Source of the DNA: Pseudomonas quebecensis | GTDB lineage: Bacteria; Pseudomonadota; Gammaproteobacteria; Pseudomonadales; Pseudomonadaceae | Length of the DNA: 64,000 bases | Assembly: GCF_026410085.1 (NCBI RefSeq) | Contig: NZ_CP112866.1 | Location: 1,178,001-1,242,000 of the forward strand | Reading direction: 5' to 3' | In this document: positions 29,537 to 41,542 of the stretch, piece after piece | How the letters are laid out: each line of letters opens with the position of its first letter | How positions within the stretch are numbered: position 1 is the first letter of the stretch | Made by a program: the position numbers and the translations under genes | The notes under the pieces: generated by a model | Database searches by the model: none | Seen by the model: the letters and a program-made list of their open reading frames with translations, nothing else | Told to the model about the DNA's origin: nothing

Positions 29537-29626
29537 GGTGAAGTGTCCGAGTGGCTTAAGGAGCACGCCTGGAAAGTGTGTATACAAGAAATTGTATCGA
29601 GAGTTCGAATCTCTCCTTCACCGCCA
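29537..29626 (+). tRNA. tRNA-Ser (anticodon GGA)
   Basis: 90-nt class II tRNA. The acceptor stem GGTGAAG pairs with CTTCACC, the discriminator is G and CCA is encoded. The anticodon loop CTGGAAA carries GGA at 29571-29573, and a long variable arm (GTGTATACAAGAAATTGTATC region) and T-arm GAGTTCGAATCTC follow. The 3' 22 nt are the attachment site of the mobile element, which leaves the gene intact. Confidence 0.97.
29605..29626 (+). other. attL (22-bp core, tRNA-Ser 3' end)
   Basis: The 22 bp ending in the encoded CCA (TCGAATCTCTCC...CCGCCA) recur exactly at 41509-41530. The flanking base differs on each side, which fixes the limits of identity. Confidence 0.95.
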
Positions 29627-29632
29627 AATTAA

Positions 29633-29668
29633 AAAACGCCTGTAACTTCAACGAGTTACGGGCGTTTT
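29633..29668 (+). terminator. Element-borne terminator directly after the tRNA
   Basis: AAAACGCCTGTAACT pairs with AGTTACGGGCGTTTT across loop TCAACG (one G-T wobble). It sits 7 nt inside the element, replacing the host tRNA terminator, which is displaced to 41543-41580. It would also insulate the element from tRNA transcription. Confidence 0.85.
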
Positions 29669-29678
29669 GCATTCTGGG

Positions 29679-29701
29679 TTGTACTACTCAATTGTACTAC
29701 T
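29679..29701 (+). promoter_or_regulatory. Left integrase arm-type sites (two TTGTACTACT repeats)
   Basis: TTGTACTACT occurs at 29679-29688 and 29692-29701, a 13-bp period. The same pair with the same period occurs at 41431-41453. The left pair begins 52 bp from the attL core and the right pair ends 55 bp from attR, as expected for integrase arm-binding sites. Confidence 0.8.
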
Positions 29702-29864
29702 CGTCCTCAGCTTTCTCAGTCCGATACCGCCTTCTAATATCCGCCCCTCCAACAACACCAAAGCCCTCCAGTTATTCAGCAATCGCCACGCGCACTTTTC
29801 AATACCAAGCCATCCCGCCCTACCAACTATTTTGTCACTAGTCAAGCAAAAATGAAGATTTATA

Positions 29865-29893
29865 TTGACAGATAATCATTCTCATGGGATAAT
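29865..29893 (+). promoter_or_regulatory. Rightward sigma-70 promoter overlapping a Fur-box-like palindrome
   Basis: TTGACA (29865-29870), 17-nt spacer and GATAAT (29888-29893). AGATAATCATTCTCA at 29870-29884 matches the 7-1-7 Fur box TGATAATCATTATCA at 13 of 15 positions and fills the spacer, where a repressor would block RNA polymerase. The promoter is strong by sequence. Iron control is inferred. Confidence 0.7.
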
Positions 29894-29899
29894 AACTTA

Positions 29900-30049
29900 A
29901 TGAGAGAACAAAAGTTTTCTTGTCCAGTCGCAAGGTATTCGGGATGCCTTTCCACGGTATTTGCAGTTACTGGCGGCGCCAACTGCTCCACTTTCCTCTT
30001 GTATGCCGACGCTCCTTCCTCCCTGTTTGGCATTCAATCAGCCCGTTAA
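29900..30049 (+). CDS. Possible leaderless 49-residue ORF
   Basis: ATG lies at 29900, 7 nt after the -10 box and so at the expected transcription start; there is no room for a ribosome-binding site. The product would be 49 aa starting MREQKFSCPVARYSGCLSTV, with three Cys and no known motif. It ends in a small hairpin (CCCG...CGGG) followed by TTCTTTCTT. Either a leaderless leader peptide or chance; weak. Confidence 0.25.
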   Translation: MREQKFSCPVARYSGCLSTVFAVTGGANCSTFLLYADAPSSLFGIQSAR

Positions 30050-30334
30050 CGCGGGTTCTTTCTTCGATCACGCCATAGATGCTTAGCCGCTAGTGTCGTA
30101 ATCAAGCACAGGTTGATCGTTTACGCGAATGGACGATGCAACTTACCCACAACTCTAAGCTTGGGTCAGGACTTCGACGGTAGTCTGTGGGGATATACCG
30201 TCAATAATTTCCTTCATCAGAGTCCTTAAGTCGTAGGGGCTTCCTCCATGGCCTGATGACGGTTCCGCCAGTAACTGCTACGACAACTGGCACCCATTAT
30301 TCAATGCACTTGAGGCATCCAGTTGCATCCCTTT

Positions 30335-30362
30335 AGGCCAGCTCTTTTGCTGGCCTCTTTTT
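30335..30362 (+). terminator. Rho-independent terminator upstream of the element's first gene
   Basis: AGGCCAGC and GCTGGCCT form an 8-bp stem around TCTTTT, followed by CTTTTT. It lies 42 nt before the ATG at 30405, so it is positioned as an attenuator for the downstream genes. Confidence 0.85.
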
Positions 30363-30404
30363 GCTCGCTCACCAATCTTTCACACATTCACAAAAGGAAC
30401 ATAT

Positions 30405-30584
30405 ATGTCCAAACCTGCATCTCTTTTCACCCGTTGTGCTGCTTGTGGCACGTCTGTAGTAACTTCCTACATCACCAATGGCCCCCGGTACTGTAGCCAC
30501 CGCTGCTATATGCGAGTGTGGCGCATGACACAGAAAGCCAAAACATTCGAACAAGCTCCACAGTCGCTTACTGAACAGTTCTAA
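30405..30584 (+). CDS. 59-residue zinc-ribbon protein (element)
   Basis: Small ORF missed by length cut-offs. It starts MSKPASLFTRCAACG, with C11-x2-C14 and C30-S-H-R-C34 after Tyr29 (RYCSHRC). This is the same pattern (C-x2-4-C, then aromatic-C-S-x2-C) as the proteins at 35032 and 35186. AAAAGGA precedes the ATG. It is probably a treble-clef/zinc-ribbon nucleic-acid or protein binder. Function unknown. Confidence 0.7.
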   Translation: MSKPASLFTRCAACGTSVVTSYITNGPRYCSHRCYMRVWRMTQKAKTFEQAPQSLTEQF

Positions 30585-30630
30585 TAACTCGCAACCCCTA
30601 TTCCCAAACTCATCAATAAGGAAAACAAGC

Positions 30631-30888
30631 ATGAACATCAACATCGAACACCTGACAATCAACATCATCCAGCCTCTTGAGGCTTTGCAGGAAAAGCCAG
30701 TTACCCAAGTTAGACACGGGCACCGCACCCAAGAGGTGGCTCAGTTGAAGCTTGAAGATGCCAGACTTAAACAGGTCGCTGCTCAGAAACGTGCAGACCG
30801 TCTTCAATACAAACTCCGTATTGCTGAAAGGCTTCGCACACTCTTTGGTGACGACGTTGCTAATAGCGTGATGGCAGGTGGTTTCTGA
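30631..30888 (+). CDS. Small charged helical protein (element)
   Basis: 85-aa product starting MNINIEHLTINIIQPLEALQ. Residues 30-70 are strongly helical and charged (VAQLKLEDARLKQVAAQKRAD), ending in LFGDDVANSVMAGGF. AAGGAAAAC precedes the ATG. Its stop overlaps the following 39-codon ORF (TGATG). No known family recognised. Confidence 0.65.
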   Translation: MNINIEHLTINIIQPLEALQEKPVTQVRHGHRTQEVAQLKLEDARLKQVAAQKRADRLQYKLRIAERLRTLFGDDVANSVMAGGF

Positions 30889-31007
30889 TGCTTGCTATCT
30901 ATTGTATGTGTACATCCGCTGGAGCACTAGCTTGTGCTTGCCAAGCCTTTAATACTGCCATCATGGCTCTCAAACAAAACATCAAAAACAATGGAGACTC
31001 CAAATGA
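30888..31007 (+). CDS. 39-residue Cys-rich hydrophobic peptide (element)
   Basis: A very short ORF whose ATG overlaps the stop of the previous gene and whose TGA overlaps the ATG of the next (ATGA). It is therefore translationally coupled at both ends, the main reason to believe it. It begins MLAIYCMCTSAGALACACQA, with four Cys in the first 18 residues, then a short polar tail. It could be a membrane or zinc-binding peptide. Function unknown. Confidence 0.5.
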   Translation: MLAIYCMCTSAGALACACQAFNTAIMALKQNIKNNGDSK

Positions 31008-31531
31008 CTACAACATACGACCCAAAGGTAAACCGCCGTCACCTCAAAGCTGAACTAGCCGAATACATCAAAACTGCTATTGAAGCTGCGAAGAACGGGC
31101 TTCCTCAACATGAAGGGAGTCTAAACCCAACTGCAAGAGTCATCTTCTATGTAAGAACTACCCACGAAGCCATGACTCGCTTTGCCACGCTTGCAACTGA
31201 AGGCTGGACTCTCGACGAAGACGATTTGTGTCTGGTGCAGAAAGTAGGCGTACCACTATCGTTCACGGCTATTGCTCCAGAAGATGTGTTCAACGAACAG
31301 TTTCTTGAAAAAATCGTTAAACGTGCAGAGTACGACTACCAGAAAGAGATTGACGACCACAACAAGCAAGCTCAAAAGTTGCGGGATCGTGATGACTTCA
31401 TTGAAGCCGAGTTCAAACGCATGGAAGAAGAGCGTCTTGCCCAATTGAGGGCACAGCTTGCGAAAGAATACGACTCTAAAATCAACCCTAGATACGTCAA
31501 CTCTGAAGCAACACAGCTTCACGCTCGTTAA
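31004..31531 (+). CDS. Unknown protein with C-terminal coiled coil (element)
   Basis: 175-aa product starting MTTTYDPKVNRRHLKAELAE. The middle has FYVRTTHEAMTRFATLATEG. Residues 105-165 are a highly charged coiled coil (KRAEYDYQKEIDDHNKQAQK, KRMEEERLAQLRAQLAKEYD). It lies immediately upstream of the tape measure-like gene and could be its chaperone or partner, as such proteins flank tape-measure genes in phages. That is positional inference only. Confidence 0.65.
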   Translation: MTTTYDPKVNRRHLKAELAEYIKTAIEAAKNGLPQHEGSLNPTARVIFYVRTTHEAMTRFATLATEGWTLDEDDLCLVQKVGVPLSFTAIAPEDVFNEQFLEKIVKRAEYDYQKEIDDHNKQAQKLRDRDDFIEAEFKRMEEERLAQLRAQLAKEYDSKINPRYVNSEATQLHAR

Positions 31532-31573
31532 CAAGAGGGGCGTTTGTCCCTCTCCCTATAAGGATAAACAACC

Positions 31574-33805
31574 ATGTCGATGCACGAGGAAATCGCCCGA
31601 CTTACAGGCACATTGAGACTTAATGTTGAAGGTGCAGCAGGCTTCCAACGTTTCAACAGAATGATGCAAAACGCGAGCAAGCAGCTTCTTCAGTTGGGCG
31701 CTGATTATGCAAAGCTCTCTGCTCAAATGTCGAAGGGCTTAAAACTGAAGATGGACACATCAGCCATCACCAAAGCCAAAGCCTCTCTTGATAGTGCTAT
31801 TAAGCGTCAGGCACGAGCTGAAGCAGCTTTGAGTAACCAGCAACGCAAGACTTTCACCGCAGAACTGACTCAGCACAAACTAAAGTATGCTGGCACCAAA
31901 GCGCAGAACCAGCTCAACAGTGCTTCTCTGCAAAGCCAGAAGGACGCCGCTGTTGTCGCAGCCAAGGCAGCAGCAAGCCAAGCTGCCGGTGGTGCAGCGT
32001 CTAAGGCTCAATTGGCGACTCAGAATGCGCTCGTGGCCTCCGTCGCTAAGCAAACCCGACTACAGGCTATTCAGCAGAAACTAGCAGCGAACACTCAGAA
32101 GGCAGCCAACAACCATTTGATGAGCCAAGGCAAGTTGCAACGTATTCAACAGCAGATGAATCACGCCCAACAGCAAGCCCATATTCGTGCTCAACGCGCA
32201 GCAACTCAACAGGCAGCAGCAGCCCAGACAGCAGCCAACAAGGCCCAGAACAGCACCCAGAGCGCCGCTAGATTCCAGATGACCCAGCAACGCCATCAAG
32301 CTTGGCAAGCACGCCAGAACGCACCAGCACCCGCTAATAACGGCATGTTCGGCTCGGGTATCGGCGGAGTCCTGGCCCTTGGCGGAATGATTGGCGGTAT
32401 CGGGATTGCAGTGTCTTCTCTGAATGCCCTTATTGGCAGACTTGGAGAACGTATTGAAGAGCGTAAAGAGAGCGTCAAGGGTGCAGAGGCATTCAACTCT
32501 AACTTCACTGCTATCAGTCGTGACCCAGCCCAGCAGAAAATGTGGCGAGACGAATACATCAAGGCAGCTAACGACAGTGGCACCAGCATTGATGTAGACA
32601 GTGCAAAAGACTTTCGTAACTTTGTGATGGCCCAGCTTGCCTATGGTAAGAAGCCTGACGGGATTATGAAAGACTACAAGCTTCGTCAACAGGTGTTCGC
32701 CATCAGTGGTGCAAGTAAGGACGATGCTAAAGAGCTGAACAAGCAACTTGGACAGATGGCGTCTGACGGCACAGGTAACAAGCAAGACTACGACATTATC
32801 AACGACCGTATGCCAATGATGGCCCCATACCTTGCCCGTGCTTACGGAGAGGAAAAGGGAATCAAAGACCCGATCAAAGCGCGTCAAGCTCTCAACAAGG
32901 GTCTGAAGGGTGGTGATGGTGTTAAGTACAGTTGGTACGAACGTGCCTTCCAACTGATGGCCGAAGAAAATCAAGGCATGCTAGAGGATCGCAAGAAGAC
33001 CGTAACTTTCACTCAGGCTCAAGCTGACAACCAGAAGTATCTAAACGACAACTCGGTTAACACTGACGCCAATTTGAGCGAGGCCATGAAAGACAACGTT
33101 AAGGCTTGGCAAGATGTTAACACTGATCTTGAGTCCACCCGTGCCGCACTCAAGGGATTTGACGAAGGTCTGACAAACGCCCAAACCAGTCTTCTAAGGT
33201 TCATGTTTGGACGCAACCTGGACGGCTCCACGAAATCGCAAGGCGATCAGATGGCAGACCGTATGACCACCGTTGATATGCCTGCCATGTTCAATTGGTT
33301 TAACACTCCAGAGTACGACAAGGTTGACCCACTCGGTAATCGAGACAAAGGATTTTATGACAACTTCCTAGACAAGATTTTTGGTGTAACTGAACGCAAT
33401 GCTCAAGCACGTAAAGATCGTGACATGTCACTTGGCGAATTCAAGCTCCCTGAACTTGACTCATCTACTCTGACGCCAAAGCCTACGATGGATAAGACTT
33501 ACAAGATTCCTAACAGTATGTCGTCGCTTGCTGACACTTTCAGTGCGATGCAGAGTGCAATGTCTGACTCAGGGCAGATGCAGGCCGCTACAACAACAAG
33601 CCAAGTGTTCAATCAGCCTATCACCGTGAACAATCAAGTCGATGTCACAATTGCAGGTAGTGCAACCGAGAAAGACGCTCAAGAGTTCTTGACCAAAGTC
33701 AGGTCTGAGATCGGAACTCTAGAGAGTAAAATTCCTGGCCTGTCTGCTGATGCAGTTCGCAGTATGCTTGGACAGGCTAGGGCGCAACAGGCAGAACGAC
33801 AGTGA
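31574..33805 (+). CDS. Phage tail tape-measure-like protein, stand-alone
   Basis: 743-aa protein. Residues 1-250 are a long Ala/Gln-rich helix (LRLNVEGAAGFQRFNRMMQN at the start), typical of tape-measure rods. A glycine-rich hydrophobic segment follows (about 255-285, GIGGVLALGGMIGGIGIAVS), probably membrane-active. Next comes a region like the tape_meas_nterm domain (RQQVFAISGASKDDAKELNK, QMASDGTGNKQDYDIINDRM). The C-terminal end has QPITVNNQVDVTIAGSATEK, as in many tape measures. In siphophages it sets tail length and helps DNA cross the membrane. No other tail gene is in this element. Its stop overlaps the next start (GTGA). Confidence 0.8.
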   Translation: MSMHEEIARLTGTLRLNVEGAAGFQRFNRMMQNASKQLLQLGADYAKLSAQMSKGLKLKMDTSAITKAKASLDSAIKRQARAEAALSNQQRKTFTAELTQHKLKYAGTKAQNQLNSASLQSQKDAAVVAAKAAASQAAGGAASKAQLATQNALVASVAKQTRLQAIQQKLAANTQKAANNHLMSQGKLQRIQQQMNHAQQQAHIRAQRAATQQAAAAQTAANKAQNSTQSAARFQMTQQRHQAWQARQNAPAPANNGMFGSGIGGVLALGGMIGGIGIAVSSLNALIGRLGERIEERKESVKGAEAFNSNFTAISRDPAQQKMWRDEYIKAANDSGTSIDVDSAKDFRNFVMAQLAYGKKPDGIMKDYKLRQQVFAISGASKDDAKELNKQLGQMASDGTGNKQDYDIINDRMPMMAPYLARAYGEEKGIKDPIKARQALNKGLKGGDGVKYSWYERAFQLMAEENQGMLEDRKKTVTFTQAQADNQKYLNDNSVNTDANLSEAMKDNVKAWQDVNTDLESTRAALKGFDEGLTNAQTSLLRFMFGRNLDGSTKSQGDQMADRMTTVDMPAMFNWFNTPEYDKVDPLGNRDKGFYDNFLDKIFGVTERNAQARKDRDMSLGEFKLPELDSSTLTPKPTMDKTYKIPNSMSSLADTFSAMQSAMSDSGQMQAATTTSQVFNQPITVNNQVDVTIAGSATEKDAQEFLTKVRSEIGTLESKIPGLSADAVRSMLGQARAQQAERQ

Positions 33806-34071
33806 CAGCTTTTCTAAACTTCTTCAGGATGGTGGCCCTGTCACTCATCCTGATCTTCATTTTCTACACATATCAGTCACAGCAAAAACTTGCTAGAGAT
33901 ACGAGCCTCATGATTGACGAATCACGTCGATATGCAGATAACCGTATTCTTGAATCCCAGAACAGAGTGCTCGACACAGTGACGGAAGTATCCAAAGCAA
34001 CCCGACTGCTAGCACTAATCATCTGTAAGCGAGAAAACAATGATCAGTTGTGCAACCTGCCACCTAGATAG
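33802..34071 (+). CDS. Small single-pass membrane protein with coiled coil (element)
   Basis: 89-aa product with a GTG start overlapping the tape-measure stop. An N-terminal helix (FFRMVALSLILIFIFYTY, about residues 6-23) is followed by a charged helix (SLMIDESRRYADNRILESQN) and a C-terminal Cys pair in IICKRENNDQLCNLPP. Coupling to the tape measure-like gene suggests joint production. It may be a spanin-, holin- or tail-associated membrane factor, but no family is recognised. Confidence 0.6.
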   Translation: MTAFLNFFRMVALSLILIFIFYTYQSQQKLARDTSLMIDESRRYADNRILESQNRVLDTVTEVSKATRLLALIICKRENNDQLCNLPPR

Positions 34072-34083
34072 GAGAATCCAACA

Positions 34084-34293
34084 ATGAATATACAGTATAG
34101 CCAGATCAAGAATCACCGTGATCGGTACGAAGCCGCTTACAGCTACATTGCCGACACTTTCGGGCAACACACGCCATACATGATGCCTGATCTTGTTAGT
34201 CGTTTGGTAACGGCCATCACACGCGGCGTCCCTGAACATCAGTTCAGGACGGACGCCGAAACTATGTTCAGTGTGTGGAATGAGTCAGAGTGA
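34084..34293 (+). CDS. Small helical protein, paralogue of 34780-35001 product
   Basis: 69-aa product starting MNIQYSQIKNHRDRYEAAYS. It shares a pattern with the 73-aa product at 34780: AA..Y, G.H.P, L...L, G..E..FR.DA.TM..V at the same spacing over about 55 residues. TAGGAG lies upstream of the ATG. It overlaps the next gene by GTGA. Function unknown; a small all-helical regulator or decoy is possible. Confidence 0.6.
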   Translation: MNIQYSQIKNHRDRYEAAYSYIADTFGQHTPYMMPDLVSRLVTAITRGVPEHQFRTDAETMFSVWNESE

Positions 34294-34502
34294 CCACTCC
34301 ATTTAACCCACTATTACTGGATGACTTGAGGGAAGCCCTTGGCCTAACCGACCTCCGTGCAACCGAACATGTCTGGCTCGCACTTCAAGCTTTAAGTTTG
34401 AGCGGCACCGATATCGAGGTACTTAGAGTCGAAAAGTCCGCCCCAATCACGTCTGCCGAAAGAACTATCCAAATCCTCCAACAGAGGTTTGGCAAGAAAT
34501 AA
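34290..34502 (+). CDS. Small unknown protein (element)
   Basis: 70-aa product, GTG start overlapping the previous stop. It begins MTTPFNPLLLDDLREALGLT and ends QILQQRFGKK. It is mostly helical and acidic then basic. Last gene of the block that starts at 30405. No family recognised. Confidence 0.55.
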   Translation: MTTPFNPLLLDDLREALGLTDLRATEHVWLALQALSLSGTDIEVLRVEKSAPITSAERTIQILQQRFGKK

Positions 34503-34779
34503 ATCTTGACAAAGTTGTCCTAGAGGCTTGACGTGTGAGAGTTTGATGTTAACATTAGATGTGAGGGTTTCATTGCCTTCTAATTTTCAGTTTCATCCCT
34601 TTCTTGCTTTATCGCTACAAGTCCCGACAGTGCATTATGAGAGCTTCTTTGCTCTAAGTGCCACTACAGCACTGCTCAGCCTTTAAACTCTTCCTAGAAC
34701 GTCCCTGACGAGCTTCTGGCTGGCCTGTTGCATCCTGTTTAAACACAAACACCCAACTCATCAAAATGGAGAACATCCT
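34503..34779 (+). promoter_or_regulatory. Intergenic region with a probable second promoter
   Basis: TTGACG (about 34531-34536), a 16-nt spacer and TAACAT form a candidate promoter; another TTGACA lies at 34507. Downstream are small hairpins AGAGC/GCTCT and GTGC/GCAC (about 34641-34675) in an untranslated leader of about 220 nt. The following GTG start at 34780 has GGAG 8 nt upstream. Confidence 0.45.
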
Positions 34780-35001
34780 GTGTCCGATTACAACGATATC
34801 CAATGTGCCCCAGACGAAGCACAAGCCGCTAAACGATACCTTTCATTCTGGTACGGCGAACACGTCCCGGTCCTCTTTAAACCACTGATCGATCACTTGA
34901 TCAGAAGTGTTATCGCAGGCAGAAGCGAGAGAGAGTTCCGTGAAGATGCTTACACCATGTATGCCGTCAGGGAAATTCCCGGCCTACGCTCTCGCCACTG
35001 A
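34780..35001 (+). CDS. Small helical protein, paralogue of 34084-34293 product
   Basis: 73-aa product, GTG start with GGAG at 34768-34771. It reads MSDYNDIQCAPDEAQAAKRY at the start and ...REFREDAYTMYAV near the end, aligning with the 34084 product (FRTDAETMFSV). The two flank a promoter region, suggesting duplication followed by separate expression. Function unknown. Confidence 0.6.
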   Translation: MSDYNDIQCAPDEAQAAKRYLSFWYGEHVPVLFKPLIDHLIRSVIAGRSEREFREDAYTMYAVREIPGLRSRH

Positions 35002-35031
35002 CACATTCATTCATCAAATGGAGAAAGCTTT

Positions 35032-35208
35032 ATGCCCGTTCAAAACAAGCGTGGCGGCATGTTCAAGCAAGTTAACACTTGCCAGCACTGTCTAAAGGAG
35101 TTTGTAGCGAATCGAAGCTACAAGTTCTGCTCGCCGCTCTGCCGCTTCATTCACACATCTAATCCAGCCCAAGAAGGAGCTATACATGACGAAGGCAACA
35201 TCCAGTAA
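35032..35208 (+). CDS. 58-residue zinc-ribbon protein (element)
   Basis: Small ORF starting MPVQNKRGGMFKQVNTCQHC, with C17-x2-C20 and YKFCSPLC (C33, C37). GGAG lies 8 nt upstream of the ATG. The 3' end overlaps the next gene by 23 bp in another frame. It looks like a free-standing version of the N-terminal zinc ribbon of that next protein. Confidence 0.65.
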   Translation: MPVQNKRGGMFKQVNTCQHCLKEFVANRSYKFCSPLCRFIHTSNPAQEGAIHDEGNIQ

Positions 35209-36403
35209 AGCAACACGCCGCCCAACTTGCCAGAACCCAGCCTGTAAAAAGCGTTTCACCACTTCTGTAGCATCTGCAAAGTATTGTTCTGCCAAGTGCG
35301 GTGACGCTAAACGCAACAGCCGTAAGAGGGTTGACCCGCTAGATAAGGCTGCTAAGTCTGCTTTCTTCATGTATCTGGCTAACGAGTGTATTCGTGCTGG
35401 TACAATCGAAATCCTCAGAGGCCATACAGTTGAATCCTTGTGCGAACTCCACAGTCTTTACGTTGCTAACATGAAGTGGAACGGGTTTGGCGATTCCAGT
35501 GCTTACGAACTAAGCCACATCGCACCCGTAAAAGGGCATGACTGCATCGGCGTGTTGTACGCCGAAAATCTCGTATCTGCTCCCAAAAGTCTGAATCGCG
35601 CGCACGGCACCAGACATTACGGACATGGTAAGGCAATCCATCGACTAACCCTCAATCATAAGCTCAACGTAGATAAGCGTTGGAACAGTGTTTCTGAAGT
35701 GCGTCAGATGGTGATTAGCTACCTTGGGCGAGAACTGGTGTGCTCCGTGATTAAGGCTTGCAAGATCAAGCCGACACAACGTCACCAAGTGACAGAATGG
35801 ATTCTCGCTCATTACGACCCATCGAACCCAACTCATACAGCCGCGCTTCCCGATCTGGATCAGGTGCATAACCTCAAGGCCAGAGAGCTGGCCCACGTTA
35901 AAGCAGCCATGCTAGACGAAGAGGCTGGCGTTTACATCTCCACCCCACCAACACATCCAGCCATCGTGCTGCGCGACGAACTCACCAGATTGAGCGCCTA
36001 CCGTCCTGAGCTTGAGGTCTACGCATACGCACTGGACGATGCTCTGGCTACCCAAGGTGACGATTACAGTCTGTTTTCCAAGCACCACGAAAAGATGTTG
36101 TTCGACGTGTTGCATGGAAAGTCGATTGCCGTGATGGCTGACACGCTGGAAATGATTGTTGGCGAGAACACTGCCCACAGCTTCATCACCTACAGCGGCA
36201 AAGCTGCCCGATACAACGTCAAAGCTCTGGACTACTTCGACCTACCTGTCCACTCGGGTGCAAGGCTCCACAAGACGTCTCTGGCAGCTTTCAAAGTTTC
36301 GATTAGTGTCCGTGGTGCGCGTGAAGTTGAGCAAAGCTTCAGCTTCCCATTGCACGAAGTGGTGCTCGATCCTTGGGGAAACGAAGTGGTGGCTCCTTTC
36401 TGA
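35186..36403 (+). CDS. Zinc-ribbon protein with HNH-like motif (element)
   Basis: 405-aa product. An N-terminal zinc ribbon (C15-x4-C20, C34-x3-C38 in KYCSAKC) is followed by a basic stretch. Residues 108-141 read ELSHIAPVKG...YAENLVSAPKSLNRAHG, with E108, H111, N128, N137 and H140 spaced as in HNH/His-Me-finger nucleases. The remaining 260 residues are unassigned. AAGGAGC precedes the ATG. HNH proteins assist terminase in many tailed phages, so a role in DNA processing or packaging is possible but unproved; homing or defence are alternatives. A strong terminator follows. Confidence 0.65.
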   Translation: MTKATSSKATRRPTCQNPACKKRFTTSVASAKYCSAKCGDAKRNSRKRVDPLDKAAKSAFFMYLANECIRAGTIEILRGHTVESLCELHSLYVANMKWNGFGDSSAYELSHIAPVKGHDCIGVLYAENLVSAPKSLNRAHGTRHYGHGKAIHRLTLNHKLNVDKRWNSVSEVRQMVISYLGRELVCSVIKACKIKPTQRHQVTEWILAHYDPSNPTHTAALPDLDQVHNLKARELAHVKAAMLDEEAGVYISTPPTHPAIVLRDELTRLSAYRPELEVYAYALDDALATQGDDYSLFSKHHEKMLFDVLHGKSIAVMADTLEMIVGENTAHSFITYSGKAARYNVKALDYFDLPVHSGARLHKTSLAAFKVSISVRGAREVEQSFSFPLHEVVLDPWGNEVVAPF

Positions 36404-36420
36404 CGTCACTCGTTGTTCCT

Positions 36421-36447
36421 GGCCCGTCTCTCATGACGGGCCTTTCT
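36421..36447 (+). terminator. Terminator after the HNH-like gene
   Basis: GGCCCGTC, loop TCTCAT, GACGGGCC, then TTTCT, 17 nt after the stop codon. It closes the rightward gene block of the element. Confidence 0.9.
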
Positions 36448-36476
36448 ACGTCTTCAGGAACACTCCACGCCCCGCA

Positions 36477-36553
36477 GGTAGGAGAGATTCTACCGGGATC
36501 GAATCCGCTACAGCCCATGTAATACGGGGCTTTCAGCCGGTTTAGGCTGACGC
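36477..36553. repeat. 77-bp structured repeat, copy 1
   Basis: Aligns without gaps to 38189-38265 with 51 of 77 bases identical by hand count. Shared cores are ATTCTACCGG, TACGGGGC, AGCC and TGACGC. Potential hairpins are GGTAG/CTACC, GGAT/ATCC, AGCCC/GGGCT and CAGCC/GGCTG. Lies downstream of a terminator, in non-coding DNA. Confidence 0.7.
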
Positions 36554-37266
36554 ACAATCACTCGAAAGAAGTGTCGTCGATAGCCTGAAGCTATCGAAAG
36601 TGCTTGACAAGAAGGGTGGGTTAATTGACACTGCGTGTCCTCACGCGGTGTATGCTCCAACTGGAATTGCACCTGCGGAGCATCGATCCTCGCACCACCG
36701 CTGTTCTTCCTGACACCCCGCCCATACATACCAACGTCACTACGAAACCAAGCTTCTGCTCTTGATCTTGCTTCTGTCCGTTAGGACACGTGTTATCCCT
36801 CTCAGAACGTCCGTTCTGGATAGCACCCCCTGTCGGTTACGACAGACTAATGTTCTCTCGTGATGTATTTTTATATAAATAAAACATCAATAATACACCA
36901 GTAAAACTACGTTTTGATTATATTTACCCTCAAAACGATCAGCTTTCAGTGTCTCCCTCCCGGACCTCGGTCCAAGTAACTCCCCACCTTCAAGTTTGCC
37001 CACACCCCAAGCGGGCTAAGGCTCACAGCCAAGTGTGAACAATCTTGTATTGCAGAAGCACCAAGTTGTCGTGCGTAGCACATGGCTGGTTCTACTTGAC
37101 TTTTCGCTTTCTCTCTCGCGGCGGCGGCAAAATTTCGCACTTTGGAGGGGCGGTACATCATCCGCAAGGATTTACAATCACATCCTTGTGGAAATAGCAA
37201 GTATTTTATCTTGTTTTTTCGTTTTTCTTCTGTCATGGTTTCTCCACACCCAACAGGAGCGCCCCC
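36554..37266. other. Long non-coding stretch with hairpin cluster and A+T-rich block
   Basis: Hairpins GATAGC/GCTATC (36580-36596), ATGCTCC/GGAGCAT (about 36646-36684), and three in a row between 36776 and 36860: GTCC-GTTA-GGAC, AGAAC-GTCC-GTTCT and CTGTCG-GTTA-CGACAG. Then an A+T-rich block (36862-36930) with inverted repeats GATGT/ACATC, GTATT/AATAC and GTTTTGA/TCAAAAC. Such layouts occur at replication or transfer origins, but no direct iterons were found. Reading frames here look accidental. Confidence 0.45.
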
Positions 37267-37506
37267 ATGACAGACTTCAATGAAACCAATATGCACGCAG
37301 CACTGACCCCTATTGCTAATGGAACCATGACCCAGTGCAAGGAAAGGATTAATCAAAGCGGGCTTTATCGCGCCCTCTATGATCATCGGTACATCACGGG
37401 AGCGGCTTCCGAGTCTCTGAACTTCCTTACCATTGACGATGTGTCGCTGACTCTCTTGGGGTACACGTTCTTGGACTCTTTTACAGCGGCCTGCCGTGTG
37501 CAATAG
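37267..37506 (+). CDS. Small unknown protein (element)
   Basis: 79-aa product starting MTDFNETNMHAALTPIANGT. The ATG is 7 nt after AGGAG (37255-37259), a good site. It has no signal peptide or known motif; sequence includes DHRYITGAASESLNF. It sits between the A+T-rich region and the serine recombinase site. Function unknown. Confidence 0.6.
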   Translation: MTDFNETNMHAALTPIANGTMTQCKERINQSGLYRALYDHRYITGAASESLNFLTIDDVSLTLLGYTFLDSFTAACRVQ

Positions 37507-37519
37507 GGCAGGGTCTAGG

Positions 37520-37602
37520 GCACACGCTCCGTGCATACGCCAGAACTAGCAGAAGCGTGTGCATTAGGGTTGATTCTGGTAGTGCATACAGATAAGATGC
37601 AC
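37520..37602. promoter_or_regulatory. Candidate recombination (res-like) site of the serine recombinase
   Basis: Repeated and inverted copies of GTGCAT/GCACAC: GCACACGC (37520-37527) inverted to GCGTGTGC (37555-37562), GTGCATAC at 37531 and 37582, and GTGCAT / ATGCAC (37582-37602) as an inverted pair. It lies directly upstream of the recombinase gene, where Tn3-type resolvases have their binding sites. It may also autoregulate the gene. Confidence 0.5.
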
Positions 37603-37636
37603 ACATCTAGAGTCATAAGCACACGGGATGCCTGAC

Positions 37637-38182
37637 ATGACCAACATCGCCTACATTCGAGTTTCGACAATTGACCAGAACACTGACCGTCAACTTGATG
37701 GAATGACGTTCGACAAAACATTCACTGACAAGCTGTCTGGTGCGACTACTGATCGTCCTCAACTGCTCGCCATGATCGATTGGGCACGTGCTGGTGATGT
37801 TGTTCACGTGCATTCGATTGACCGTCTGGCTCGCTCCATGTCCGACCTGCTCAAGATCGTTGCTGACATCAACGCCAAGGGTGCACACGTCAAGTTTCAC
37901 AAAGAGAGCCTGACATTCACCGGCGACGACTCGCCCATGCAGAAACTCATGCTGAACATGATGGGCAGCTTCGCCCAGTTCGAACGTGAAGTGATGAAGG
38001 AGCGTCAAAGGGAAGGTATCGCCAAGGCTAAACAGAAGGGTGTCTACAAAGGTCGAGTGAAGTCAGTTGATGATGCTGCGATCCTGGCCCTGCTGGCTTC
38101 TGGCAAGTCTGTACGTGCTGTCGCTGCTGAACTGGATATCAACCCGTCCACTGTGCAACGTGCAAAGAAGAATGCCGCATAA
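37637..38182 (+). CDS. Serine recombinase, resolvase/invertase family
   Basis: Small serine site-specific recombinase (181 aa from ATG 37637; an in-frame ATG at 37628 is also possible). The catalytic Ser is in IAYIRVSTIDQNTDRQ, with the motif VHSIDRLARSMSDL, the E helix QKLMLNMMGSFAQFEREVMK and a C-terminal helix-turn-helix (SVRAVAAELDINPSTVQRAK). It could resolve dimers, invert DNA or act with the tyrosine integrase. No invertible segment was identified. Confidence 0.9.
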   Translation: MTNIAYIRVSTIDQNTDRQLDGMTFDKTFTDKLSGATTDRPQLLAMIDWARAGDVVHVHSIDRLARSMSDLLKIVADINAKGAHVKFHKESLTFTGDDSPMQKLMLNMMGSFAQFEREVMKERQREGIAKAKQKGVYKGRVKSVDDAAILALLASGKSVRAVAAELDINPSTVQRAKKNAA

Positions 38183-38188
38183 CGGGCC

Positions 38189-38265
38189 AGTAGTAGACAT
38201 TCTACCGGAATGGATTCGCCCCTAAGCCACGGTTTACGGGGCCTGTAGCCACTTTTAAGTGACGC
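38189..38265. repeat. 77-bp structured repeat, copy 2
   Basis: Second copy of the element at 36477-36553, same length with no gaps. It begins 7 nt after the recombinase stop. Potential hairpins are AGTAG/CTAC, GAAT/ATTC, GCCCC/GGGGC and CACTT/AAGTG. Several stems differ in sequence from copy 1 but keep pairing. Confidence 0.7.
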
Positions 38266-38458
38266 GATCCCGCCTGCACCACCCCTGGCAAACACCTTCC
38301 ATACGCGTCCACAGCAGCCAGAATAGGCATGAGTGCAGCTAGACCTCGCTGACGATGGTGTCAATTATTTTGAGAAAGCTCAGCTTTCAAAACAGGGTGG
38401 CCGTGTTCGCATTGAGTAGCTCAGGTGATAACCCCGGTTTCGGGATGTCTCGCCCCCA
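38266..38458. other. Non-coding stretch between structured repeat and Rap1a cassette
   Basis: No gene seen. It contains hairpins GAAAGC-TCA-GCTTTC (38374-38388) and CCCGG/CGGG (about 38433-38443), which may act as terminators for convergent transcripts from the recombinase and Rap1a-type genes. Confidence 0.4.
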
Positions 38459-38543
38459 TTATTTTTCCCTGAGCTGAATCGAAGAATGCCTTCAAGTGCA
38501 TGGCTCTCGCGGCGCGGGATTTGGGATTTCGCCTGAAGAATGC
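38459..38543. repeat. Cassette-flanking direct repeat A
   Basis: Starts with TTATTTTTCCCT and ends TTTCGCCTGAAGAATGC. It aligns with 38975-39057 (TTATTTTTCCCT ... TTTCGTCTGGAAAATGC) with shared GTGCA, CTCTC and GGCG blocks between. Lies just past the stop of the Rap1a-type gene. Confidence 0.65.
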
Positions 38544-38547
38544 GATG

Positions 38548-38925
38548 TCACTTGCAGGGGTAAGCATCTTGGATGGCAAACATCGCTAAAGTAGCGTCAT
38601 CTGTGTCTTTGAGTTCGGTAGTCCTTAAGTAATCGACTACTATTTGTACAGCCTCGCCTACCGTCACAGGTCTTTCAGGAAAGCAGGTTTTAAACTCGCT
38701 CGAAAGGTGGCTATTCAAGCTCTGCATTGTTTTTAGAACCCCCTCAACGAGCCCTACGCACATCCCTTCAGCGACAGATGGCCCGCCCTTGATTTGGTCG
38801 CCAGTCACATAAGGAAGTACACCCTGGCACTGCGCAAGCAAAGCATTCCCGCCAGTGAAGTCAGCGACGACCGACCCGCTACACAACATCCCAACCATTG
38901 CCACCGTCATTAACAGTGCTTTCAT
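38548..38925 (-). CDS. Rap1a/Tai-family immunity-like secreted protein
   Basis: 125-aa product with a signal peptide (MKALLMTVAMVGMLCSGSVVA) and a Rap1a/Tai fold signature: GGNALLAQCQGVLPY, EGMCVGLVEGVLKTM, FKTCFPERPVTVGEAVQIVV, VDYLRTTE and a terminal AIQDAYPCK. Four conserved-type Cys are present. Members of this family neutralise type VI amidase toxins in the periplasm. No cognate toxin is nearby, so it may be an orphan immunity or a general anti-toxin cargo. ATG 38925 is used (AAGG 9 nt upstream); ATG 38934 is possible. Confidence 0.75.
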   Translation of the reverse strand: MKALLMTVAMVGMLCSGSVVADFTGGNALLAQCQGVLPYVTGDQIKGGPSVAEGMCVGLVEGVLKTMQSLNSHLSSEFKTCFPERPVTVGEAVQIVVDYLRTTELKDTDDATLAMFAIQDAYPCK

Positions 38926-38974
38926 ACTGCGCATCCTTGACAAGCTGTTGTTCAGACCGGCCACAGCTCGGCCG

Positions 38975-39057
38975 TTATTTTTCCCTACCTGATTTGAGTC
39001 TTGTCGAAAGGTGCAAACTCTCTCTGGGCGGCGGCTGGAGTTTCGTCTGGAAAATGC
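38975..39057. repeat. Cassette-flanking direct repeat B
   Basis: Imperfect direct copy of 38459-38543, located in the upstream region of the Rap1a-type gene. The repeat-to-repeat distance (516 bp) equals one gene cassette. Confidence 0.65.
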
Positions 39058-39136
39058 CTTTGCCATCTGCCTATCAGACAATTGCTGCACCCGAACGGTA
39101 ATGGCAAGATGATACCTTCTGATCAAGGAAGAAAAA

Positions 39137-39817
39137 ATGGCACTTATCGCGTGTTACGAATGCTCGAAGGAAATCAGTGACACCGCCCAGTCGTGTCCGG
39201 GTTGCGGCGCTCCTGTAAAATCGACCATCAATACAGTCGATCCAAGACCGTACCAACCAGCACACCGTATGGTTAGCCTCCAGCTCTTTCTTGGAATGGT
39301 TGTATTCGCCCCAGTCTGTGTATGGTTCCTGCTTCGCAAGGGATACTCAACTCAATCCCGTGTGATCGGATTTGGATGGCTTGTTGTCTACCTATTCCTG
39401 GGGCCGCTGAGCAGTCACACGCCAGACTCCACACGAACGACATCAACGGCGAGTAGCGCCTATTCAACCTCCCGCCCCGTGGAGCAGTATCCTGAAAGCA
39501 CTGCAACATACGCGCAGGTGAATGCTGATATCGGATGCAAAAGCACTTACAGCGACCAGAAAAAAGACGACATTTTCAAAGCTAAGTACAAAGATCACTG
39601 GATGACATGGGGCGGCGAAATCGTCCTGCTAGAATCCGATGAGGCTTCATTGAACGTCGACCACGTAGGAACTCAAGACCTCAAGGTCGATTTCGCGGAC
39701 AAGACTGCTGGGTACAATCTTTCAAAGGGCAGCGAGCTGAAAGTCAGATTCTTGATGAAGAGTGCAGGGGGTTGCTTCCTGCCCTTTAGTGGCGAAAAGG
39801 CCACAGTAGTTCGATAG
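39137..39817 (+). CDS. Zinc-ribbon membrane protein with C-terminal OB-like domain (element)
   Basis: 226-aa product. A rubredoxin-like zinc ribbon at the N-terminus (ACYECSKEISDTAQSCPGCG) is followed by two membrane helices (about residues 46-66 and 75-95), a Ser/Thr-rich linker (TSTASSAYSTSRPVEQYPES) and a C-terminal soluble domain (ADIGCKSTYSDQKKDDIFKA ... LKVRFLMKSAGGCFLPF) that looks like a beta-barrel OB-type fold. Similar proteins occur widely as accessory genes. Role unknown; membrane-linked defence or exclusion is possible. Confidence 0.7.
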   Translation: MALIACYECSKEISDTAQSCPGCGAPVKSTINTVDPRPYQPAHRMVSLQLFLGMVVFAPVCVWFLLRKGYSTQSRVIGFGWLVVYLFLGPLSSHTPDSTRTTSTASSAYSTSRPVEQYPESTATYAQVNADIGCKSTYSDQKKDDIFKAKYKDHWMTWGGEIVLLESDEASLNVDHVGTQDLKVDFADKTAGYNLSKGSELKVRFLMKSAGGCFLPFSGEKATVVR

Positions 39818-39905
39818 CACCGCGTTCATGCTCACAACCCAGACGCTTCCTCATTCTTCTGGGTTGTCGAGTTCGGTAGCGCTGGTATGATTTGAACCTC
39901 TTGAG

Positions 39906-41396
39906 TCATTTGGTGTGCATATTGAGTGCAGGTAGTTTGGTTATTGCCGCAAGCTTCTGTTTTGTGCTCGCGCCCTTTGAATAAACATCGTGCGTCACGG
40001 ACCCAGTTTCGTGCCCAACCAGTTCCTTCGCCAAAGCATCTGGCACATCAGCCCTGATCAGTTCTGTCACCACCGTGTGCCTAAAGCTGTGGAAGACATG
40101 GAGCCTACTGAAGCCTGCCGCCGTGCGTAGCCTGCCAAACGCTTTGGAGATTGCGTGTGACCGCTTGCCATACTTATCGGCTGACTCTGCTGGAATCAGA
40201 AATGTGTCTGTACTGTCCTTGACCAGACGGTCAACCGTTGACAACAGGCTTGGATGAATCGGCACCACACGCTTACTCGCCTTGCTCTTGCTCCTTGGGA
40301 AGTCAAAGCACTGAACACCATCAATAGTGATCACGCTGTCTTTAGTCAGCCTGCATAGCTCTTCAATCCTGGCCCCCGTGTACCAGCCCAACGCGATAAG
40401 GTCGGCAAGCGGTTGATCATCGTTATCCAACGCCGCACGTTGCAGCTTCAGGGTGTCAGCCTTCGTATATATTTCCCTGTCCTTGCCTGCTGTCTCCGCA
40501 CCTCCACCTTGCGGCAGTTCGTGACCAACAAACGGATTCACCTTGTCTTTAAACTGGTCACGCCACCCGGCGTCATACTTCATTGCCCACTTCCAAAACG
40601 CAGTGCCAGCCATCAAATACTGACTCAGTGTCGCAGGTGCCCGGTCTAGGGATTTCAGCCAAACGTCTACGGTGTCAAAGGTCAGAGGCAGGCCGTCTTT
40701 CTTCAGAAACTCCGACAGGCGCTCCATCTTCCCGACCTGTTGATCGATATGTTTCGGAGCACCACCACGACTCTCCCTAAACTCCTTGAACGTCTTCAGG
40801 CGTGCTGTGGTGATCGGCGATCTGACCTTGTGAGAAGTAGGGTCAGCTAAAATGACTTGCATCTCTTCCGCCTCTGACGACGAAAAGTCGTTAGCGTGGG
40901 CAGTCAACCCTCCCCACGTTTCGAGCAGCATTTTATGTACCAGATCATGAATCGCAATCTCGCCCTCCAAGCCGTGCTTGGCATACACAGCGTCTGCTTC
41001 AGCTCGTCGCCGTCTTCCGTCCTCCGTGTCACTGAATACGAATTGCCGCAGCTCTTCTAAGTGAGCCGGATCGATATCGAGATTCGTGGGTTTAGTTTCA
41101 CCAAGGGCTGTGTCGATCTTGAGTTGGCGGGTGATCTGGCTGAAGTCTTGGGCGTCCTGAGCTATTCGCTCTTTCCAAGAATCACCACGATTGGTGCGCT
41201 TATCCCGTGCTGCCTGAAACTGAGCTTTCCACTTAGTGAGGACCGGAAGACGTGCGTCCATCGCTTCCTTACGCAGTCCAGTCTTCAACGACTGAATCAG
41301 CACCTTGCAGCCAATGGCTTTCTGTACATCAGCAGGTACAGCCAGCCTGACGTACCAAGTGGATTCGCCTTTCTTCTGGATTAAATTGTCTGCCAT
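39906..41396 (-). CDS. Tyrosine-type integrase of the island
   Basis: Site-specific recombinase (496 aa) that would integrate and excise the element at tRNA-Ser. The N-terminal arm-binding domain begins MADNLIQKKGESTWYVRLAV, a core-binding SAM-like domain lies near the middle, and the catalytic domain has Arg in TGARIEELCRL, HSFRH (His-x2-Arg), LVGHE and the Tyr nucleophile in HDVYSKG. The ATG at 41396 was chosen; a TTG at 41426 is in frame. The promoter region overlaps the right arm sites, so integrase binding may repress its own gene. Confidence 0.95.
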   Translation of the reverse strand: MADNLIQKKGESTWYVRLAVPADVQKAIGCKVLIQSLKTGLRKEAMDARLPVLTKWKAQFQAARDKRTNRGDSWKERIAQDAQDFSQITRQLKIDTALGETKPTNLDIDPAHLEELRQFVFSDTEDGRRRRAEADAVYAKHGLEGEIAIHDLVHKMLLETWGGLTAHANDFSSSEAEEMQVILADPTSHKVRSPITTARLKTFKEFRESRGGAPKHIDQQVGKMERLSEFLKKDGLPLTFDTVDVWLKSLDRAPATLSQYLMAGTAFWKWAMKYDAGWRDQFKDKVNPFVGHELPQGGGAETAGKDREIYTKADTLKLQRAALDNDDQPLADLIALGWYTGARIEELCRLTKDSVITIDGVQCFDFPRSKSKASKRVVPIHPSLLSTVDRLVKDSTDTFLIPAESADKYGKRSHAISKAFGRLRTAAGFSRLHVFHSFRHTVVTELIRADVPDALAKELVGHETGSVTHDVYSKGASTKQKLAAITKLPALNMHTK

Positions 41397-41430
41397 TGAA
41401 GCGCCATAGAACGGGAAGTGGTACAACGGA

Positions 41431-41453
41431 TTGTACTACTCATTTGTACTACT
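41431..41453 (+). promoter_or_regulatory. Right integrase arm-type sites (two TTGTACTACT repeats)
   Basis: TTGTACTACT at 41431-41440 and 41444-41453, same 13-bp period and orientation as the left pair at 29679-29701. It lies between the integrase start and attR. Confidence 0.8.
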
Positions 41454-41508
41454 ATGCACGCTGAAGGCCCCGTAATACGCGGGGTTGTGGCCCAAACGAC
41501 CATCAAAA

Positions 41509-41530
41509 TCGAATCTCTCCTTCACCGCCA
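41509..41530 (+). other. attR (22-bp core)
   Basis: Exact copy of 29605-29626. It marks the right boundary of the element; no tRNA 5' part is attached. The GTAATAC-containing hairpin CCCCG/CGGGG lies just inside, at about 41468-41484. Confidence 0.95.
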
Positions 41531-41542
41531 CATTCTACAAAC

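Follow-up and report, generated by a model that had tools for sequence, protein, structure and literature searches.

A genomic island of Pseudomonas quebecensis that encodes a tape measure protein with phage-like ends is probably a phage satellite

The window analysed in this study is a 64,000-nt stretch of the 5.6-Mb chromosome of Pseudomonas quebecensis (NZ_CP112866.1, positions 1,178,001 to 1,242,000 of the forward strand), and it contains a genomic island of about 12 kb that encodes a tape measure protein (TMP). The evidence presented below suggested that this island is probably a phage satellite, which would rebuild the tail of an Otagovirus-type helper phage around its own ruler. The island is integrated at a tRNA-Ser(GGA) gene (29537..29626, + strand; detected by ARAGORN and by the Rfam tRNA model), the 3' end of which is repeated at 41509, and in the Rfam scan of the island only this tRNA reached its gathering score. 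An earlier note on this DNA had described exact 22-bp flanking repeats, matched arm sites, an integrase at one end and an A+T-rich composition, and each of these observations held. The direct repeat that forms the attachment (att) core (29605..29630 on the left, 41509..41534 on the right) is exact over its first 22 bp and extends to 26 bp with one mismatch (25/26 identical), giving a repeat-to-repeat length of 11,904-11,905 bp, and a second, arm-type repeat pair lies inside the island (29676..29701 and 41428..41453, 24/26 identical). The integrase is of the tyrosine type (39906..41426, - strand; DUF6538 plus Phage_integrase, PF00589 at 6e-16; 51% to the integrase of the related island L010), and the G+C content in 1-kb bins was 47-54% inside the island and 55-66% outside. 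The borders are not due to chance, because G040, a genome of the same species, holds the uninterrupted site: its matches to the left flank (99.4% over 631 bp) and the right flank (99.0% over 692 bp) overlap at the repeat, which means that the flanks are contiguous. Element-internal queries against G040 returned no match beyond the 22-bp repeat. The contiguous flanks and the lack of an internal match therefore indicated that the element is 11,904 bp long and was recently mobile.

The central gene of the island (31574..33805, + strand) encodes a protein of 743 aa, with a TMP_3 region at about residues 305-443 and a hydrophobic stretch at about residues 261-287. This protein had been called tape-measure-like, and sequence profiles (PF20155 and hhalign) bore this out. 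In a six-frame search of its own genome, PF20155 (TMP_3) matched the 743-aa open reading frame (ORF) at 1.4e-6, which is below the curated cut-off, and no tape-measure family was assigned when the protein was scanned directly against Pfam and PHROG. Homologues from the related islands L011, L046 and L047 scored above the PF20155 cut-off; P0011, P0021 and L013 fell below it, and L010 and L014 had no PF20155 match. A homologue search, which scored only the 8000 candidates with the most words in common, returned 76 homologues (median length 746, sd 19), 18 of which carried a precomputed PF20155 match. When profiles were aligned by hhalign with six annotated phage TMPs, the TMP sets A1 and A2 scored 97.4% (E 1.4e-11) and 95.2% (E 2.9e-8), and A9, the L046/L047 branch, scored 99.3% (E 3e-20). 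By tblastn, the L046 and L047 TMPs matched 303 and 254 phage records, with 14/20 and 28/40, respectively, of the matches listed annotated as tape measure. In addition, the N-terminus of the TMP family matched the solved protein 9zd7 gp88 (788 aa; E 2e-4), which is itself closely related to the TMP of phage phiPsa374 (E 4.7e-110). Judged from these profile comparisons, the 743-aa protein is a TMP, the ruler that sets tail length. Searched as a whole against 50,697 phage records, it matched MT836130 alone at E 0.01.

By alignment, both ends of the window TMP nearly copy the ends of TMPs from Pseudomonas myophages of 90-102 kb (Otagovirus and its kin). The N-terminus of the window TMP, EEIARLTGTLRLNVE, was identical at 13/15 positions to that of the phage 16Q TMP, EEIARLTGTLKFNVE, and the C-terminus, SMLGQARAQQAERQ, was identical at 11/14 positions to QALGTARAQQAERQ of the same phage protein. 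Among 715 ORFs of 16Q, the TMP was the best match at both ends (scores 64 and 50 vs 25 and 10 for the runners-up). In searches of the 50,697 phage records with each end alone, residues 1-36 had 34 matches, namely the satellite MT836130 and 33 Pseudomonas phages, all of 90-102 kb. The last 35 residues had 41 matches, namely 36 Pseudomonas phages (90-102 kb), three Acinetobacter and two Gordonia phages. The terminal match lay inside a gene annotated as tape measure in 26/33 (N-terminal) and 25/36 (C-terminal) cases, and the remaining matches fell in genes annotated as hypothetical or membrane protein, or without annotation. Five of the records list P. putida KT2440 as host. The N-terminal motif occurred in 72/76 TMP homologues. 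The middle of the protein is diverged, and at 743 aa the window TMP is 34-45 residues shorter than the phage TMPs (777-788 aa in six phages, vs a median of 746 in the 76 satellite homologues). The control TMPs, from the co-resident prophage (995 aa), a siphophage (1454 aa) and an Ounavirinae-labelled phage, had neither end in common with the window TMP. At the level of whole proteins, the TMPs of 9/17 islands matched the 16Q TMP at E 0.01 or better (E 0.001 to 2e-7), and the phage matches of the L046/L047 branch included TMPs of 93-98-kb Pseudomonas myophages. By eye, and as leads only, the L046/L047 ends ..ETKR/..QTKK resemble ..KETK of phage Y1-MI, and the L013/L041 end ..QTEVE resembles ..QKEVE of phage GesM_254.

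Phages 16Q, Psxphi15 and phiPsa374 carry the Otagovirus label in their records, and a sheath and a baseplate are annotated beside the phiPsa374 TMP. Otagovirus and Pakpunavirus are genera of Vandenendeviridae; size and match suggest that the other matched phages belong to the same group. Otagovirus phages are lytic. The related Pakpunavirus Adele has been termed a lytic myovirus (PMC12846349). We then compared 329 satellite proteins with 16Q at E 0.01, and the matches comprised the TMPs of the nine islands, one ORF of island L019 and two marginal stretches (E 0.005 and 0.006). The L019 ORF (62 aa) matched at 71% (3e-22), and the L019 DNA matched 16Q over 123 nt at 80%. A longer stretch of about 330 nt (L019:15038-15374) had matches in 146 phage records. 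Of these, 145 are Pseudomonas phages, and the 30 that were listed are all of 90-102 kb; the stretch maps mostly to a hypothetical or lysis gene adjoining an RNA ligase gene. By this likeness, the stretch is captured DNA of the Otagovirus-type phage group, and it could possibly act as a packaging signal or a source of antisense RNA, or be present by chance. Islands and Otagovirus-type phages also matched each other over short stretches of DNA, 19-47 nt in length (E 5e-5 to 0.03).

The TMP profile matched 17/398 Pseudomonas genomes, the own genome included, 1/369 genomes of the class (the own genome) and 2/293 genomes of the order (the own genome and another genus of the same family). In these searches, the genome matches were confined to Pseudomonadaceae, plus one faecal record (MT836130), and no relative was found on plasmids at E 1e-3. 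The weak matches in G164 and G078 turned out to lie in islands of this kind whose gene order is rearranged (L046, L047), and the locus in G752 (L045) is fragmentary and looks decayed. A TMP-family gene was present in 18/19 mapped loci, with fragments only in L045 and a gene split by an intron in L015. A search of other Pseudomonas for the same block, which the earlier note had suggested, returned a similar gene set in 17 mapped loci. The recurring order begins with a zinc-finger-like protein, a 156-250-aa protein, optional 74-122- and 121-175-aa proteins and the TMP; it continues with an 88-119-aa protein with a hydrophobic N-terminus, a 57-83-aa protein and a zinc-finger-like protein, and it ends with a 376-446-aa or ~210-aa protein and a small serine recombinase. 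The integrase is of the tyrosine or large serine type and lies at either end of the island; some loci miss single genes of this order or have them unclustered. The targets of the family include tRNA-Ser(GGA) and tRNA-Ser(CGA), and we take the end of ychJ and the 4.5S RNA gene to be further ones.

Seven att-bounded islands, including that of the window, span 11,788-12,384 bp, the six others measuring 12,119, 12,057, 12,215, 11,788, 12,078 and 12,384 bp; L009 and L044 share a core but have repeats of just 13 and 15 bp. L040 is an eighth island of perhaps 13.7 kb, and in nine further intact islands a repeat pair could not be made out clearly. Contigs with relatives of the 405-aa island protein described below had 186 distinct lengths, of which 16 fell in the 12-13 kb bin; the six bins around it averaged 4.7 (Poisson tail 3e-5), and the 8-kb bin held 12. 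This length peak is suggestive only, since the bins were picked after viewing, each length is that of the longest contig in a protein cluster, and the listing covered the best 120 of 186 matches. Within the family, the TMPs of L011 and L012 were 82% identical and the next proteins 74%, with other neighbours at 22-39%, and the two halves of the L015 TMP resembled different islands; the TMP gene and the next one apparently travel together as a cassette. The gap in the L015 TMP gene (L015:8411-8630, genome G095) is filled by a group I intron (RF00028, 64.9 bits, gathering 50, E 3.7e-16), and the split TMP is therefore probably spliced. L048 (G721), which we do not count among the islands, contains an open frame of 1346 aa that matches the TMP profile weakly and is possibly a phage TMP. 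The human faecal record MT836130 (L009), entered as 'Bacteriophage sp.', is an island of the same family. We rejected it as a free phage or as evidence of packaging, since it has no terminal overlap and its flanking DNA looks chromosomal.

The gene content of the relatives was examined by scanning 135 of the 162 ORFs listed for eight islands, which corresponded to seven islands; the 23 ORFs of L040 and four tiny ORFs were left out. Pfam returned 13 families, including integrase, resolvase, recombinase, TMP_3 (3), Rap1a (3), AbiJ_NTD4 (2), helix-turn-helix and minor ones, and TMP_3, found in 3/7 TMPs at E 1e-5, was the only phage-structural family among them. Integrases and invertases featured among the PHROG families, 25/27 of which were listed, and the others listed were a transposase, replication initiators, antirepressors, a regulator and families of unknown function. 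The 13 Pfam and 25/27 listed PHROG families include none for a capsid, portal, terminase, tube, sheath or baseplate, and no AlpA, P4-type primase, sid/psu or TerS occurred in either list at E up to 1e-5. The window island itself gave the same result: the Pfam and PHROG scans assigned none of its ORFs to a family of capsid, portal, terminase, tube or baseplate proteins, as had been claimed for the 11.9 kb. A recognised head module or full tail module, which the earlier note had said would count against a satellite if found in related islands, was absent from all six att-bounded relatives scanned, about ten further islands being mapped only. Seven of nine gene pairs of relatives had ratios of nonsynonymous to synonymous substitution (dN/dS) of 0.07-0.17, including two TMP pairs (0.14 and 0.07); saturation affected the other two pairs, of which one was a TMP pair, and none of the scored pairs included the window TMP. 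These results indicated that the scored gene pairs are under purifying selection, and that the island is an integrated, bounded and mobile element without recognised genes for autonomous virion production.

These data also bear on whether the island is merely the remnant of a tailed prophage that has lost its head genes and most of its tail genes. An integrase at one end, a tRNA target and a TMP gene are prophage features too, and one related locus (L045) looks decayed. Against this, 17 mapped loci have a similar gene set, the seven islands scanned are without recognised head genes, and the scored genes of relatives are under purifying selection. Moreover, no complete parent phage was found, because the whole window TMP matched MT836130 alone among the phage records. 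Recurrence, size, gene content and selection in relatives thus disfavour a decayed prophage, which we regard as very improbable. A filamentous or other non-tailed virus was unsupported as well, the only hallmark found being that of tailed phages.

The remaining genes of the window island are mostly small and lie on the + strand. Upstream of the TMP are a 59-aa zinc-finger-like protein (30405..30584; homologues in L018 and L040, weak PHROG matches), an 85-aa protein (30631..30888; homologue in L019) and a 175-aa protein with an N-terminal domain and a long charged stretch (31004..31531), a candidate assembly or chaperone protein whose family sits upstream of the TMP in 17 mapped islands. The TMP stop codon is overlapped by the gene of an 89-aa protein (33802..34071), which keeps this position in relatives and, with one N-terminal hydrophobic segment, is a probable membrane protein. 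It is followed by a 69-aa protein (34084..34293), a 70-aa protein (34290..34502; homologues in L017 and L040), a 73-aa protein (34780..35001) of the same cluster as the 69-aa protein, and a 58-aa zinc-finger-like protein (35032..35208) from a cluster of 10 among the mapped islands. A 405-aa protein (35186..36403), found in 12 mapped islands, has an N-terminal Cys motif and a conserved H..N..N/H pattern, which we read by eye as HNH-nuclease-like; its family had no convincing relative in the PDB, and the protein had no phage match at E 0.01. The next 1.2 kb (36404..37627) has several short hairpins, judged by eye, and no ORFs conserved in other mapped islands, except one 73-aa minus-strand ORF with a weak partner in L045; it is a possible origin and recombination site. 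A conserved 184-aa small serine recombinase of the resolvase/invertase type (37628..38182; PF00239, 1.6e-37) is the second recombinase of the island. Cargo near the integrase includes a Rap1a-family protein (38548..39126, - strand; PF18602, 5.2e-9), which likely starts near 38925 with a signal peptide, and, probably, a 226-aa zinc-ribbon protein (39137..39817, + strand; weak Pfam matches below cut-off). Cluster relatives of the Rap1a-family protein were found in L012, L014, L020 and L044, and one lay outside the island in L011. AbiJ_NTD4 proteins are among the cargo of two other islands (L009:6661-7509 and L044:5651-6520).

On this evidence, we consider it probable that the island is a satellite with its own ruler, and its cycle could run as follows. 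Infection by a large myophage of the Otagovirus kind (Vandenendeviridae) would trigger excision and replication of the island by means of its recombinase, the possible origin and, in some islands, initiator-like proteins. The island would depend on the helper for its virions and transfer, its DNA being packed into helper-made particles, and the satellite TMP would replace the helper TMP in the tail. The helper-like ends of the satellite TMP would dock with the helper parts that hold both ends of the ruler, and the middle, comprising the ruler and the TMP_3 domain, would be the satellite's own, in a protein 34-45 residues shorter than that of the helper. Chimeric tails would result, as in the PLEs (phage-inducible chromosomal island-like elements) of Vibrio with phage ICP1. 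The benefits may include selective assembly of satellite virions, a weakened helper, and escape from tail-assembly defences that recognise the helper TMP. The prophage protein Tab of P. aeruginosa has been reported to recognise the TMP and block tail assembly, with Tab sensitivity linked to the TMP C-terminus (PMC10884400). In the same report, a phage with another phage's TMP still gave infectious particles (PMC10884400), so TMPs are exchangeable between related phages. The earlier note had proposed that the element replaces a helper tape measure; this proposal was strengthened by both ends nearly copying one phage group, and replacement itself is what we infer from that likeness.

Several observations weigh against the satellite reading. 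No capsid-size, packaging or phage-response gene was recognised; MT836130 shows no packaging, because its flanking DNA looks chromosomal; and three pattern-based IMG/VR scans returned no relative. The constancy of size rests on 7/17 islands. Phage 16Q was selected for having matching ends, and the 33 and 36 phage records include GenBank/RefSeq doubles, so that about 27 and 23 distinct phages stand behind them. Taken singly, the terminal tblastn E-values are weak (0.07-10), but two independent ends converge on a single phage group, and this convergence is not weak. The C-terminal AR[A/S]QQAE occurs in 38/76 homologues, which makes the C-terminal match that of a subset. Beyond the TMPs, the L019 fragment and the two marginal matches, none of the 329 satellite proteins hit 16Q, and the window DNA from 34490 to 39900 had no match to Otagovirus-type phages. 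Two further points would also suit a satellite with a different helper, temperate or from outside Vandenendeviridae, in which the likeness of the ends reflects old TMP ancestry and not a present partnership: four of seven A1 TMPs (L009, L011, L012 and L014) have other C-termini, without a match to the six phages, and the TMP_3 region of L046/L047 is nearer by E-value to siphophages of 55-61 kb (2e-11) than to Pseudomonas myophages (best 2e-7).

A potential helper of this kind is present in the same genome at about 2.40-2.43 Mb, where a contractile-tail prophage (~2404000-2425000; L053, L054) carries a terminase, portal, protease, sheath, 995-aa TMP and endolysin; it was located with PF10145, and its portal was named by PHROGs, PF04860 giving none. 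The earlier note had treated co-resident prophages as inducible helpers. The likely helpers are not prophages, and this prophage is therefore not the best candidate; it is possible as a helper and disfavoured, its TMP sharing neither end with that of the window, as is also true of the siphophage TMP. In addition, near-identity is found at both ends only, beside a far more diverged middle, which argues for functional constraint on the ends, and L019 holds DNA of the Otagovirus-type group. Taken together, a different helper appears unlikely, and an Otagovirus-type helper remains our preferred reading.

The island of about 12 kb differs in host genus and in likely helper family from the PLEs of Vibrio cholerae, which are about 18 kb in size. 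Satellite-encoded TMPs were published for PLEs in Nature in March 2026 (PMC12987554); to this extent the earlier note, which knew of no described satellite built on this single gene, needs amending. According to that report, PLEs encode a TMP, a tail chaperone and, in PLE11, a baseplate hub, and PLE11 virions contain the PLE11 TMP in tails that are 10 nm shorter (PMC12987554). Both systems are chromosomal elements with their own TMP, shorter than that of a helper that is (here likely) a myophage, and the reported splicing of the ICP1 TMP transcript has a counterpart in the group I intron of L015 (PMC12987554). In contrast, no tail chaperone or baseplate hub was recognised in the Pseudomonas islands, and the PLE11 TMP is reported to be 20% identical to that of ICP1 overall (PMC12987554), whereas here the TMP ends nearly copy those of the likely helper. 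Parasitism of ICP1 in Vibrio does not apply either: the genome matches lie in Pseudomonadaceae and the TMP ends match Pseudomonas phages. The likeness to PLEs is one of description and not of direct sequence comparison; for the 405-aa, 175-aa and TMP families, the three whose profiles were searched, neither 5IR0, the structure that a PLE-type tail assembly chaperone would resemble, nor 2OB9 was among the PDB matches. The Pseudomonas kit would be simpler than that of PLEs, consisting of a helper-matched ruler, a probable membrane protein and a few unknown proteins.

The PLE results also bear on the possibility that the TMP is a decoy, which would occupy the docking sites of the helper and poison tail assembly without ever entering infectious particles, the island serving mainly for defence. 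Terminal likeness with a diverged middle also suits a dominant-negative protein, and tail-assembly blockers are known from prophages and satellites (PMC11364771, PMC10884400). AbiJ_NTD4 proteins occur in two related islands, and PADLOC assigned two PDC-S32 defence models, with two members each, to two of the 135 ORFs, perhaps the same two. However, a decoy need not keep a TMP of full and constant length with a hydrophobic segment, as seen across the 76 homologues, and the islands are mobile and have kept two recombinases. Deletion of tmp in PLEs reportedly costs 96 to ~99.9% of transduction (PMC12987554). We therefore judge a decoy improbable beside a satellite whose TMP would be built into tails.

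Other known satellites resemble the island in part. Putative tmp genes have been reported in capsid-forming phage-inducible chromosomal islands (cf-PICIs; PMC12987554), which differ in forming capsids, no capsid, portal or terminase family being listed here. P4-like elements and PICIs share the size class, the integrase at one end and a dependence on a helper for virions, which would hold here too, but the Pfam list of the 135 ORFs has no AlpA, P4-type primase, sid/psu or small-terminase family. AH14b is a 16.8-kb putative Pseudomonas satellite (PMC4936722); as described, it differs in having a homologue of tail assembly protein I and no identified head-neck-tail protein (PMC4936722). The islands linked to transfer-messenger RNA (tmRNA; I55) are also Pseudomonas islands, and a jumbo phage has been shown to move one of them (PMC12595487), but they target tmRNA, are larger and contain AlpA, and the term 'tape measure' is absent from the main text of that report (PMC12595487).

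The idea of a satellite-encoded TMP is thus already known (PMC12987554). Our searches of the open-licence PMC literature, without preprints, turned up no description of the Pseudomonas island family, its lack of other recognised virion genes, the likeness of the TMP ends or the predicted helper. Manipulation of helper tails by a satellite was first reported in 2026 for one Vibrio system, with its mechanism and benefit open (PMC12987554). The Pseudomonas family would add an independent example: its genus is tractable, natural variants of its TMP are numerous, and the candidate helper group has cultured members on laboratory hosts. It yields the simple prediction that satellite tails are a few nanometres shorter; at 0.105-0.158 nm per residue (from 10-15 nm per 95 residues in PMC12987554), a difference of 40 residues would shorten them by 4-6 nm. 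The likeness of the ends hints at how a satellite TMP fits into a foreign tail, and it may provide a sequence handle for satellite-helper pairing. On a broader proposal we are evenly divided: that these are genus-wide 12-kb satellites with just one virion gene common to all, for a ruler whose borrowed ends match a particular Vandenendeviridae helper and whose middle is their own, that end types differ between satellite lineages and so form a readable tag of helper specificity, that the L019 DNA is a captured packaging signal, and that the whole is a second, independent arms race between myophages and satellites, parallel to that of ICP1 and PLEs. If the satellite reading is true, Vandenendeviridae phages may meet resident parasites in Pseudomonas.

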